From an uncultured Synechococcus sp. (GTDB lineage Bacteria; Cyanobacteriota; Cyanobacteriia; PCC-6307; Cyanobiaceae): 38,117 bases of DNA. Shown here piece after piece: positions 15,358 through 24,431 of the stretch. Both the position numbers and the translations under genes were made by a program. The DNA lies in contig CAJXSQ010000004.1 of the NCBI GenBank assembly GCA_913061215.1, forward strand, positions 1 to 38,117, read 5' to 3'. The notes beneath the pieces were generated by a model. That model was not told the DNA's origin. It did not search any database and was given only the letters and a program-made list of their open reading frames with translations. Each line of letters starts with the position of its first letter. Within the stretch, counting starts at the first letter, position 1.

Positions 15358-15446
15358 GGAGAGGTGGCTGAGTGGTTGAAAGCGGCTCCCTGCTAAGGAG
15401 TTACAGGAGGCAACTTCTGTCGAGGGTTCGAATCCCTCCCTCTCCG
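15358..15446 (+). tRNA. trnS-GCU: tRNA-Ser (anticodon GCU)
   Basis: The 89-base sequence folds as a class II tRNA. The acceptor stem is GGAGAGG with CCTCTCC and discriminator G. The anticodon stem GCTCC/GGAGT closes loop CTGCTAA, with anticodon GCT at 15392-15394. A long serine-type variable arm follows, then the T-arm GAGGGTTCGAATCCCTC. It reads AGC and AGU codons. CCA is not encoded. It sits between alr and the 3' end of the opposing serine hydrolase gene. Confidence 0.96.
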
Positions 15447-20466: not shown

Positions 20467-22665
20467 TCAAGCCCCGCTGCGGCGGGGCTTTTTTGTTGGC
20501 CTGGCCGCAGGCTTGATCACGGCATCCTGGCCGCCGCCGATGCGGCCCAGTTCCGCCAGCAGCACCGGTAGATCCACCGCCAGCACGGCGAGAACCGGGT
20601 TCACCGGCAGCAGCAGATTGAGCAACACCACGCTGATGTGCGGTGCGAGCACCAGGGCGAGGTTGCGCCGGTGGCGCTGGGCGGCTTCCCAGGCGATGGT
20701 CTGACAGGCCACCAGGCTGGTGATTGCCTCCGGCCGCAGCACCAGATCGGCGTTCTCGCTGCTGAGGCCATGCTCCCGGCTGAGCAGCTCGATCGAGAGG
20801 TCGGCCTGCGCGAGGCTCAGGCCATCGATGGCGCTGCAGCCCAGCATCGCGATCGCTTCCCCCTGGGCCCGCCAGGCGTTCAGCCATCGGTGGCGCTCCA
20901 CAGCGCTGGCCGCCGTGTGAAGGCTGGCGGAGGGCCCGTGCAGCCGGGTGGCCAGGCGCTCCACCAGCTCGCTGTGATGCTCCGCCAGCAGATGCAGCTG
21001 CCAGCCGGCCCGCTGCAGCTGCCTCAGCCCCTGCAGCAGCGGCCGCGACAGCTGCAGTTCGAAGCCAACGGCGCCCACCACCTGGCCCTGCCGCACCAGA
21101 TAGAGCAGGGTTTCGCCGGGGGGCGTCACCAGTTCGGCCGGAGCGCGCAGGCCCAGCTGCTGCAGCATCGCGGCCCCACCCAGCTGGTGGAGCACCCCAT
21201 TGATGCGCCCCTGCTGCCCTTCATTGCCCAGCGGTTGGATCGCCTCCACCACGGCCGGCAGCAGATCCTCCGCTTCCAGAACACTGCGCAGCGCGTGCAG
21301 GCCATGGGGTTTCTGGCGGCAGCGGAATCCCGCCACCGCCTGAATCAGCTCTTCGCTGCTGATCAGAAAGGGCATGGCATGGATGCCACCGAGGCGCCAG
21401 CTGCTGCTGCTCAGCACCACGGCTTCGCTCACCAGCAACCGGCGGCAGCGGGCCAGGGCATCGATCGCCTCCGGTCGCCGCAGCAGCACCCCCTGCCAGA
21501 GCAGATCCCGCTGGGCGTTGCCGTAGGTGAGAGAGGCGGTGAGTTGCCAGTCGCTGGCGGGATCAAACTGCATCAGGGCACCGGCACTGCCGTGCGGACC
21601 CACCACCAGCAGGGCTGCGCCCGCCACCAGCAGGTAAGGCACGGACGCCTGGTGCCACTGTTCCGCCCGGCGCAGCAGCGAGGGATGGCGGTTGTGGCCG
21701 TCTTGCTGCTGCGCCTGATGGAGCAGCCGTTGGAGCGTTCGCCGCTCCGGATCGTGCTGCGGGCTGTGCACCAGCCGCACCTCCAGCTCCCCCTCCATCA
21801 CAAGGGCGCCGAAGGGGAGCTGCTGGAAGGCTCTGGCGCTGAGCAGGCGGGGATCACCATCGCGCCAGCGGCTGCTCACCAGGGCCTCTCCTGCCATCAC
21901 CAGCCCATGGGCCGGCACTGGATCGCCCGCTCCCAGCAGCAGCCGGTCTCCGGCTGTGAGGGCGGCGAAGGGGCGCTGCTGCCAGCGGCCATCCCCCTGC
22001 CGCACCATGAAGTTCAGATCGGTGAGCCGCTGCTGCAGCTGCTGATCAAAGGCCTCGGCAAAGCTGGGTGAGGGCGTCCAGGCCTTGAACACCTGGTTGG
22101 CTGTTTCCAGGGTCCACTCCAGCAGCACCGCGGCGGGGTTGCCCTGGGCCAGCAGGCTGCTGAACCAGAACAGATCCAGCCAGCTGCCGGCGGTTTGCGG
22201 TTGGCGCAGGCTCTGCAGGCAACGCCTGGTGAGGGGGACGTAGCCGAACGCCAGAAACAGCAGCAGGCCAGGCCAGGCGGGTAACTCCAGCAGGGCCACG
22301 CCGGCCAGAACGCCCGTGGTGCCACCGAGTCTCCAGAGGGCCGGGCGGGATGCCCGGGGCGTGAGCTGCAGCGGCTGACGCTGCTCGTGCAGCAGGGCCA
22401 GGCGCAGCAGGGCCTGCAGTTGCTTGCGCCGCAGCGGGCGGCGGCCGCTGTGCCGGATCACCAGGCTGCCGGCCAGCGTGTTGACCCGCACGGCCTGCAC
22501 CCAGGCCAGATGCAGGCTGGCGTTGAGCAGCCGCTGCTGCAGGGTGTGGTTGTTCAGCAGGGCGGAGCTGGAGAGCCGCATCCGATGCGGCAGCACCTGC
22601 CGGATCTGCCAGGGCTCGCCCTGGGGGGCGAGGTTGATCCGATCGCCGGCACGCAGCTCTGGCAT
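20467..22665 (-). CDS. Degenerate P-type ATPase homologue (pseudoenzyme)
   Basis: At 732 aa (ATG 22665; GTG 22680 adds five) this has the full layout of a heavy-metal-type P-type ATPase: an HMA-like N-terminal domain without CxxC (about 25-90), membrane helices (115-150, 160-190), an actuator-like domain (215-320), helices (340-365), a P-domain-like part and C-terminal helices (665-705). The key motifs are lost. The phosphorylation loop DKTGT is SEAVV (about 413-417), TGE is DGD (269-271), TGD is AEH, and GDGxND is GCSAID (609-614). The CPC metal motif is absent. The frame is long and clean, so it looks selected rather than decaying. ATP-driven transport is unlikely. It converges on psaL. Confidence 0.85.
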   Translation of the reverse strand: MPELRAGDRINLAPQGEPWQIRQVLPHRMRLSSSALLNNHTLQQRLLNASLHLAWVQAVRVNTLAGSLVIRHSGRRPLRRKQLQALLRLALLHEQRQPLQLTPRASRPALWRLGGTTGVLAGVALLELPAWPGLLLFLAFGYVPLTRRCLQSLRQPQTAGSWLDLFWFSSLLAQGNPAAVLLEWTLETANQVFKAWTPSPSFAEAFDQQLQQRLTDLNFMVRQGDGRWQQRPFAALTAGDRLLLGAGDPVPAHGLVMAGEALVSSRWRDGDPRLLSARAFQQLPFGALVMEGELEVRLVHSPQHDPERRTLQRLLHQAQQQDGHNRHPSLLRRAEQWHQASVPYLLVAGAALLVVGPHGSAGALMQFDPASDWQLTASLTYGNAQRDLLWQGVLLRRPEAIDALARCRRLLVSEAVVLSSSSWRLGGIHAMPFLISSEELIQAVAGFRCRQKPHGLHALRSVLEAEDLLPAVVEAIQPLGNEGQQGRINGVLHQLGGAAMLQQLGLRAPAELVTPPGETLLYLVRQGQVVGAVGFELQLSRPLLQGLRQLQRAGWQLHLLAEHHSELVERLATRLHGPSASLHTAASAVERHRWLNAWRAQGEAIAMLGCSAIDGLSLAQADLSIELLSREHGLSSENADLVLRPEAITSLVACQTIAWEAAQRHRRNLALVLAPHISVVLLNLLLPVNPVLAVLAVDLPVLLAELGRIGGGQDAVIKPAARPTKKPRRSGA
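20471..20494 (+). terminator. Intrinsic terminator of psaIL
   Basis: GCCCCGC (20471-20477) pairs with GCGGGGC (20482-20488), loop TGCG, followed by six T and preceded by AA that extends the stem. It ends the psaI-psaL transcript. It lies inside the last codons of the opposing gene and encodes its Lys/Arg-rich C-terminus; no T-run exists for the minus strand. Confidence 0.92.
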
Positions 22666-22777
22666 CGCTTCAGCCTGCACAGCCGCAGCGGCGGCCTGGC
22701 GTGTTGTGGCACACCCCGGGCCGCAGGCTCGCGCACCGCTGGGATCTCGTTAAAGTTGGCGCGTTCCGTCAGCAGTG

Positions 22778-22864
22778 ATGTGGCGATTGAGCGGCGCTTG
22801 CGCCTCTCGGCCGCCGAATGCATCGCCGGTTGACATCAATCCCCAAAGGAGGAGGTGCCCGTGA
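22778..22864 (+). CDS. Possible 28-codon leader ORF
   Basis: An ATG at 22778 opens a 28-aa frame (MWRLSGACASRPPN...RRRCP) that runs through the foldable element and the Shine-Dalgarno. It stops with a TGA that overlaps the GTG of the next small ORF (GTGA, 22861-22864). That overlap is the arrangement seen in translationally coupled genes. It has no obvious ribosome binding site of its own, and random occurrence is quite possible. Confidence 0.2.
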   Translation: MWRLSGACASRPPNASPVDINPQRRRCP

Positions 22865-22914
22865 GTCACAGTTGTTCCAAGCAGGGTCTGCTGATCGCGG
22901 AGAACGCCGGCTGA
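22861..22914 (+). CDS. Possible 17-aa small protein with ideal ribosome site
   Basis: GTG 22861 starts a 17-codon frame, MSHSCSKQGLLIAENAG. It is placed exactly 8 bases after AAAGGAGG, a perfect complement to the 16S 3' end and stronger than the sites of most genes in this window. A structured leader precedes it and a terminator follows. An alternative 38-aa frame from ATG 22818 (MHRRLTSIPKGGGARESQLF...) crosses the same region. No family is recognised, so it may be a small protein, a leader peptide or chance. Confidence 0.4.
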   Translation: MSHSCSKQGLLIAENAG

Positions 22915-22970
22915 TTACGGCGCCTGATTCCTAGATCATTCGGTTCCGCGCCAGAGCGGACCCGGCGAGA

Positions 22971-23018
22971 GCCCCCGGAGAGCCAGCGTCAGCTGCGTTC
23001 TCCGGGGGCATCGTTTTT
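22971..23018 (+). terminator. Strong terminator of the small + strand transcript
   Basis: GCCCCCGGAGA (22971-22981) pairs perfectly over 11 bp with TCTCCGGGGGC (22999-23009). An inner CAGC/GCTG stem sits in the loop, and ATCG then five T follow. The T-run exists only on the + strand, so it terminates a + strand transcript although no + strand gene was annotated upstream. The hairpin overlaps the 3' end of the opposing DUF2079 gene. Confidence 0.85.
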
Positions 23019-24431
23019 CTGGCACAGCTCAAGGCCGCTGGCCCAGCGGCGGCAGCGCCAGCCGGCGGATCTGGCCTCGCGCAGCAGCTGTTGCTGGCGC
23101 TGGCGCGAGGAGCCCCAGCCGGGATCGCGGGGATTGAGCAGCAGCGCATCCAATCGCTCCAGCTGCGTCTTGTCGCGGCGGGCGCGGGGGAAGCTCACCT
23201 GCTGGCGCTGGCTCAGCTGGGGCACCAGGTAGCTGGTGGTGCTGAGGCGCGCCTCGGCGGGAACGGCGGCGATCGCCTCCCGCACCGCCGGCAGCTGATC
23301 CACCCGCTCCAGGTAAGGCCCTGTGAAGAACCACGGTTTGGCCAGGGCTGCCCAGCACACCACACTCCAGCCGAAGCGCCGCCAGGGCACCGGCTGGCGC
23401 GGCTGCAGGGCCAGGCCATCGATGGCCGCCACCACGGCGATCACGGCCACCGGCAGGCTGTAGTGATGGATCAGGGTGCGCTGGGGAGCTTCCTCGGAGA
23501 GCACGTTCACCAGCACCAGCGGGATCGCTCCGGCCAGCACCGGCAGCGAGGCCTTCCGCCAGAACGGCGCCACCGCCACGCTGATCAGCAGCAGATACAC
23601 CAGCCCGCCGGCCCAGTCCACATGCCGGATCAGCAGATCGGGCCGGGTGAGCAAGCCCAGCAGCACCTGATCGAGGCTGTCGCCCAGGTAGGAAAACAGC
23701 GCTCCGGCAGCCTTGGGCCCGGCATCGCTGCCCTTGAGCAGCGGATAGAGCCAGCGGTTGAGCAGGGCCAGCCAGCCCAGGGCCAGGCCGAGGGCAGCGC
23801 CGGCCCAGATCCAGCGCCGCCGCAGCGCCTGCTCCAGCCCCAGACCGGCCACCACCAGCACCAGGCCGTCGCGGCAGCCCAGCAACAGCACCAGCAGGCC
23901 GAACCACAGCCAGGGCCGCTGGGCCCGGCTGGCCCAATAGGCACCGGCCAGGGCCGGCATCACCCACACCTCGGGGTGGAAGTCGAACAGGTTGGCGTTG
24001 AACACCACCGGCTGCAGCCACCACAGGCCGCAGGCCAGCCAGCAGAGCTTGGGGCTCAGGCCGGCCTGGCGGCCCACCCACCACAGCGGCAGGGCGGTGA
24101 AACTCAACGCTGCAGCCTGGCTGGCCAGCAGCCACTGCACGCTGCCCAGCAAGCGGTAGGGCAGGGCGGCGCCATAGAGGGCCCAGGCGCCGTGGTCGGC
24201 CAGGATGTGCACCCCCTCCATCGAGGAGATCGGCGGCAGGCCGCGGCTCACCAGCCAGATCCACTGATCGAACAGGCCCAGGTCGTAGGCGTTGCTCTGC
24301 AGCAGGGCGTGGCGGGCTGCGGCGCAGATCCACAGCAACAGCGCAATCGCCCCACTGGTGAGCCAGAGGTTGCGGGGCGGCAGGCTTCGGCTCTCGGGCA
24401 TGGGCGGACGCTCAGGCGCCGAGCTTCCCAT
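22989..24431 (-). CDS. DUF2079-family membrane protein
   Basis: This 480-aa polytopic membrane protein has roughly ten hydrophobic segments. N-terminal SNAYDLGLFDQWIWLVSRG and the following HILADHGAWALYG are typical of DUF2079, a family related in topology to GT-C transferases. The soluble C-terminal part (about 375-475) begins AVREAIAAVPAEARLSTTSY, also typical. The Asp residues in the first outer loop (YDLGLFDQ) could be catalytic, but no activity is established. A start at Met11 (24401) is an alternative. It is divergent from the GtrA-YdjC gene with 22 bases between start codons. A paralogue lies at 27411-29024. Confidence 0.82.
   Translation of the reverse strand: MGSSAPERPPMPESRSLPPRNLWLTSGAIALLLWICAAARHALLQSNAYDLGLFDQWIWLVSRGLPPISSMEGVHILADHGAWALYGAALPYRLLGSVQWLLASQAAALSFTALPLWWVGRQAGLSPKLCWLACGLWWLQPVVFNANLFDFHPEVWVMPALAGAYWASRAQRPWLWFGLLVLLLGCRDGLVLVVAGLGLEQALRRRWIWAGAALGLALGWLALLNRWLYPLLKGSDAGPKAAGALFSYLGDSLDQVLLGLLTRPDLLIRHVDWAGGLVYLLLISVAVAPFWRKASLPVLAGAIPLVLVNVLSEEAPQRTLIHHYSLPVAVIAVVAAIDGLALQPRQPVPWRRFGWSVVCWAALAKPWFFTGPYLERVDQLPAVREAIAAVPAEARLSTTSYLVPQLSQRQQVSFPRARRDKTQLERLDALLLNPRDPGWGSSRQRQQQLLREARSAGWRCRRWASGLELCQKNDAPGERS

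Follow-up and report, generated by a model that had tools for sequence, protein, structure and literature searches.

A conserved, structured RNA with a 17-codon open reading frame in Cyanobiaceae, very probably an overlooked branch of ncl0160

In this study, the window (the whole stretch of DNA analysed, 38,117 nt from an uncultured Synechococcus sp., contig CAJXSQ010000004.1) was observed to carry a short locus on its forward strand between two genes of the opposite strand. The following features were assigned, with their basis in brackets.

20467–22680, minus strand: P-type ATPase gene, divergent neighbour (Pfam PF00122)
22751–22756, plus strand: -10 promoter element TAAAGT, of the form TAnnnT (sequence and equal spacing in relatives)
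22763–23018, plus strand: predicted transcript of about 255 nt (bounded by the -10 box and the last base of the T-run; one conserved block)
22768–22834, plus strand: leader domain (covariation in 54 copies; covariance model R1), with stems P1 (22768–22773/22829–22834), P2 (22775–22781/22820–22826) and P3 (22782–22784/22813–22815)
22848–22857, plus strand: ribosome-binding site GGAGGAGGTG (near-invariant among aligned copies)
22861–22914, plus strand: 17-codon ORF MSHSCSKQGLLIAENAG with GTG start and TGA stop (length constancy in relatives)
22884–22963, plus strand: 3′ folded domain (consensus fold; covariance model R2), with stems 22884–22891/22956–22963, 22896–22901/22945–22950 and 22906–22909/22941–22944
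22964–23018, plus strand: terminator (sequence and consensus fold), with stem 22971–22982/22998–23009, lower stem 22964–22968/23011–23015, a GA/A internal loop, and T-run at 23014–23018
22989–24431, minus strand: DUF2079 membrane protein gene, convergent neighbour (Pfam PF09852)

The -10 box lies approximately 7 nt before the transcript start, which would fall at about 22763. As originally noted, and with every number confirmed, AAAGGAGG is found at 22845–22852, exactly 8 bases (AGGTGCCC) ahead of the GTG at 22861; this GTG opens an ORF of 17 codons that ends with TGA at 22912–22914, and an 11-bp terminator stem (GCCCCCGGAGA/TCTCCGGGGGC, 22971–22981 with 22999–23009) is followed by ATCGTTTTT. 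The conserved 3′ domain, which extends from the ORF to the terminator, was absent from that description; its 5′ arm consists of ORF codons 8–16, and the partner stretch lies directly before the terminator. The lower stem of the terminator (GGCGA/UCGUU) is conserved in the Cyanobiaceae copies, and the stop codon of the DUF2079 gene falls inside the terminator loop. A pattern scan for terminators did not list this one, the loop being longer than the scan allows; it is nonetheless evident in the sequence, folds, and is conserved. Judged from these features, region 22763–23018 of the plus strand is a free-standing gene and a predicted independent transcription unit.

Searches by blastn detected the element in 28 of 60 relatives, the weakest few of these matches being short chance matches, and homologues in 196 of 400 Cyanobiaceae genomes (142 of the 251 good ones). 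With the 3′ core model R2, 92 of 149 good genomes of the order were found to contain it. Carriers included Synechococcus WH7803, RCC307 and WH 5701, Cyanobium, Vulcanococcus, and Prochlorococcus MIT 0701. In WH7803 the core lies near 2,062,204 on the minus strand of CT971583.1, and in RCC307 near 258,122 of CT978603.1. The genomes listed by the R2 search as having no element were mostly 1.6–1.9 Mb, the size of high-light Prochlorococcus, which suggests that the element is absent from Prochlorococcus of the high-light type. Copies were about 230–270 nt in length and nearly always single in a genome. Two intact copies were present in G264 (L094 and L095) and in Synechococcus sp. GFB01 (L100 and L194), each of them between psbD and a gene for a SomA-type porin, and one further genome had, approximately 5 kb from its intact copy, a decayed second one (L228, G080:C1:2023848–2023973) with the ribosome site missing, the ORF broken and the terminator kept. 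Copies L123 and L186 come from contigs deposited under the names of Bifidobacterium breve and Gammaproteobacteria MAGs, which are probably misassigned cyanobacterial contigs. Phage and plasmid collections searched with the element gave no match. Since the element is conserved across relatives, chance is excluded, and what the comparison indicates is a real element.

The stretch folded far better than dinucleotide shuffles (z = -4.5; none of 200 shuffles). An alignment of 54 copies gave a consensus fold of 53 pairs, in which 98.2% of paired cells could pair (89.1% in shuffles), 26 pairs were changed on both sides (14.4 in shuffles), and the covariation score was 0.309 as against at most 0.083 with slid partners. 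Covarying stem bases had been named beforehand as the support to look for, and the covariation in this fold was strong. Most of the compensatory changes sit in the leader (P1–P3) and the terminator. The 3′ domain varies too little to give strong covariation of its own, and the main argument for it is that pair-breaking cells are almost absent. Taken over the whole element, these data lend strong support to a defined, covarying predicted fold.

Two pairings proposed for the leader fared less well. The GGCGAT/ATCGCC stem can be drawn in the window but is not kept in relatives, the stems that covary being P1–P3, and the CCTC thought to pair with the GAGG of the ribosome site is an unconserved part of a variable loop; P3 itself is topped by a variable apical stem. 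The leader does not appear to be a free riboswitch, because the leader model R1 found no strong second site in relatives, and a stand-alone leader riboswitch ahead of other genes was rejected on the same result. Sequestration of the ribosome site by the leader was likewise rejected, since its computed accessibility was unchanged (0.27 with and 0.25 without the leader). A UGAU/AUCA pseudoknot in the 3′ domain was dropped, as one side changes with no compensation. Upstream of the element, motifs resembling those of NtcA, RpaB (HLR1), Fur, Pho and LexA were not enriched.

Every one of the 145 distinct copies whose core was recognisable had an ORF of exactly 17 codons; this set was chosen by the core pattern and therefore leaves strongly decayed copies uncounted. 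The ORF started with ATG in 80 and GTG in 65 copies behind GGAGGAGGTG and ended with TGA, TAG or TAA, TGA being the main stop of the Cyanobiaceae form; residues S4, G9, L10 and E14 were invariant. This constancy, together with the near-invariant ribosome site, is the conservation of Shine-Dalgarno sequence and ORF on which the original prediction had been staked. Almost no synonymous change was found in codons 8–16, as expected if those codons also pair. In genus g68 (L222–L226) the 3′ domain has been rebuilt and is approximately 23 nt shorter, and the ORF still has 17 codons, with a TAG stop; copy L227, in which several core codons are changed, reads MSHSCIVEGLPLAEKAS and is also 17 codons long. 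Because the frame survives both the rebuilt 3′ domain and the changes in L227, frame and fold both appear to be held, and the pattern indicates that selection is keeping peptide and fold alike. A 17-aa peptide is very probably made from the RNA of this locus. Of the aligned copies, L093 (G035:C23) alone has lost 1 nt within the ORF; it keeps most of the fold, with several stem pairs changed on both sides, so that the fold may outlive the frame there and the peptide may be dispensable in that genome. The original suggestion of a regulated small-protein gene, leader-peptide RNA or sRNA pointed to the right area, namely a conserved 17-aa ORF in a structured RNA.

Our preferred reading, to which we give slightly better than even weight, is that the element is the Cyanobiaceae form of a cyanobacteria-wide gene, very probably ncl0160 (see below): a terminated RNA, free-standing and about 255 nt long, which would also serve as mRNA for the 17-aa peptide, its fold and its translation being mutually exclusive. 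Ribosomes would load at the near-invariant site just past the folded leader, and a ribosome at codon 8 would open the 3′ domain, because codons 8–16 are its 5′ arm. As translation would need the 3′ domain to be opened from codon 8 onward, fold and translation would exclude each other, and the RNA would switch between two states, an mRNA under translation into the peptide and a folded RNA that is not translated. A plain micropeptide mRNA, with the 17-aa peptide as its sole functional product and a fold that serves just stability and termination, would account for the frame and length kept in every one of the 145 copies and across the rebuilt 3′ domain. We regard it as rather unlikely, since the covarying leader and the near-zero synonymous change in codons 8–16 point to selection on the RNA itself, and in L093 the frame is broken while most of the fold persists.

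The genes next to the element bear on two further explanations. The convergent DUF2079 gene comes next in the window's genus, where the element is equally conserved; in most of 38 distant loci, dehydratase and porin genes follow on the same strand, and in more than 12 Cyanobiaceae loci a porin gene lies within approximately 200 nt downstream. The element was thus shown to be independent of any one downstream gene. The order of its parts, from leader through short ORF and fold to terminator, is the classical one, and with a dehydratase or porin gene following in the lineages just named the element might be a leader-peptide attenuator, in which termination or read-through into the next gene (pterin dehydratase and/or SomA-type porin) would depend on whether the ORF is translated. 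This we consider distinctly improbable: a same-strand gene directly downstream, though present in other lineages, is lacking in the window and its genus, no conserved antiterminator pairing was seen (a candidate between ORF and terminator was rejected as not conserved), and the terminator arms vary whereas the ORF does not. Attenuation of porin genes is possible where these follow directly, not in the window's genus. Porin genes are known targets of cyanobacterial sRNAs, and a terminated, structured, single-copy RNA gene adjoining them could also be a non-coding trans-acting sRNA with an accidental ORF; the invariable 17-codon frame, the use of three stop codons and of both ATG and GTG starts, and the near-invariant ribosome site make this very improbable. 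Many draft contigs end 50–450 nt upstream of the element, beside a psbD copy (L040, L044, L047, L058, L066, L079, and others), and psbD, which is probably present in more than one copy per genome, may explain these ends.

Comparison with Rfam by cmscan, both at the gathering threshold and at E ≤ 5, returned only tRNAs or sub-threshold chance matches; the tRNA gene at 15358–15446 (plus strand) was the sole match in the window at the gathering threshold. The element has no entry in Rfam, Pfam or NCBIfam, which is why gene finders miss it. Kinship with the Downstream-peptide/glutamine class had been suggested. This was not upheld, and both RF01704 and RF01739 were rejected, neither covariance model matching at gathering or even at E ≤ 5. 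Yfr103, an abundant marine RNA, was also rejected: Synechococcus CC9605 has 7 paralogues of 290–328 nt, as against a nearly always single-copy element of about 230–270 nt. That the element is a glutamine riboswitch, a Downstream-peptide (Yfr6) element or Yfr103 is therefore barely credible, despite the similar layout of leader and short ORF and, for Yfr103, a similar species range.

Model R2 gave weak matches in other cyanobacterial families, in which the same architecture holds an ORF of 23 codons (e.g. MSDSSKCMGLQVEVSRLCAGAVR); matches L255–L257 were false on inspection. Blastn with the 23-codon form detected it in 204 of 291 genomes of the class, representing 104 of 130 genera. Model R3, a profile built from non-Cyanobiaceae copies only, found the element in 13 of 13 non-Cyanobiaceae genomes. 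When the window was searched with this profile, the locus was the best match (E = 7.8e-5), as it was in the whole genome (E = 0.007, the next match having 0.23), and R3 also located the counterpart of this locus in 11 other Cyanobiaceae genomes. The consensus fold of the 23-codon form follows the same plan: GGG of codons 8–9 pairs with CCC next to the terminator, and the terminator combines a lower stem GCUA/UAGU with the GA/A loop also found in the Cyanobiaceae form. Among 35 distinct copies of 23 or 24 codons, the stop was TAA in 19 and TAG in 16. In many genomes, for the one form as for the other, a psbD copy is found upstream of the element and a SomA-type porin gene downstream; in the 23-codon form a gene for pterin-4a-carbinolamine dehydratase separates element and porin. 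These common neighbours give independent support for common descent. Cross-detection by the models in both directions, the same fold plan, the GA/A loop and the neighbours together showed, at the level of sequence comparison, that the window element and the 23-codon element (L251–L291) share descent.

The RNA ncl0160, known from Synechocystis PCC 6803 and Nostoc PCC 7120, was first seen in Synechocystis. A 2016 study of Nostoc described an sRNA that is conserved widely and probably codes for a peptide of 23–25 aa, with a ribosome site and, in 83 homologues, the stops TAA (47), TAG (34) and TGA (2); the marine Prochlorococcus/Synechococcus lineage was excluded (PMC4734099). In our literature search the name appeared in no other paper. 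The ATG or GTG start behind a ribosome-binding site is common to ncl0160 and the present element; the presence in nearly all cyanobacteria examined has its counterpart in the 204 of 291 genomes detected by blastn and the 13 of 13 detected by R3; and the ORF of 23–25 codons is found in the 23/24-codon homologues, the Cyanobiaceae copies having 17. By matching features, not by sequence, the 23-codon form is very probably ncl0160, and the window locus is very probably its overlooked picocyanobacterial (Cyanobiaceae) branch. A broader reading would make the whole family a phylum-wide, translation-gated RNA switch with peptides of 17–23 aa, retained in nearly all cyanobacteria, in which the coding sequence supplies one arm of a regulatory fold and peptide synthesis and folding are alternatives; its leader would have been replaced and its peptide shortened in picocyanobacteria, and the switch lost in high-light Prochlorococcus; we offer this as possible and on balance doubtful.

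The locus is very probably a new branch within an RNA family of which little is known and which lies outside the known Rfam families; what is new is the 17-codon picocyanobacterial branch, ncl0160 in Synechocystis and Nostoc being already known. The shortest annotated conserved cyanobacterial protein is PetN, with 29 aa (PMC5126843), and a gene of 17–23 codons, if retained in almost all of the cyanobacterial phylum, would be shorter still. The picocyanobacterial branch brings the question into tractable marine Synechococcus, and the apparent absence from high-light-type Prochlorococcus genomes would amount to a natural deletion experiment.

Several known systems resemble the element in part. 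Like ncl0160, it would be an sRNA conserved widely among cyanobacteria that carries a short ORF behind a ribosome site, and its 23-codon relatives agree with ncl0160 in peptide length (23–25 aa) and stop-codon use, whereas the Cyanobiaceae form has 17 codons, TGA as its main stop and a different covarying leader. Downstream-peptide RNA/Yfr6 (RF01704) and glnA RNA (RF01739) also place a folded leader before a short ORF in picocyanobacteria, but the most conserved section of the window element is its 3′ part. Yfr103 is likewise strongly folded and occurs in marine Synechococcus and low-light Prochlorococcus, and differs in being multi-copy and longer in CC9605. As in SgrS/SgrT and RNAIII, one terminated RNA would combine a selected fold with a short ORF; unlike in those systems, the ORF of the window element itself would form one arm of the conserved fold.
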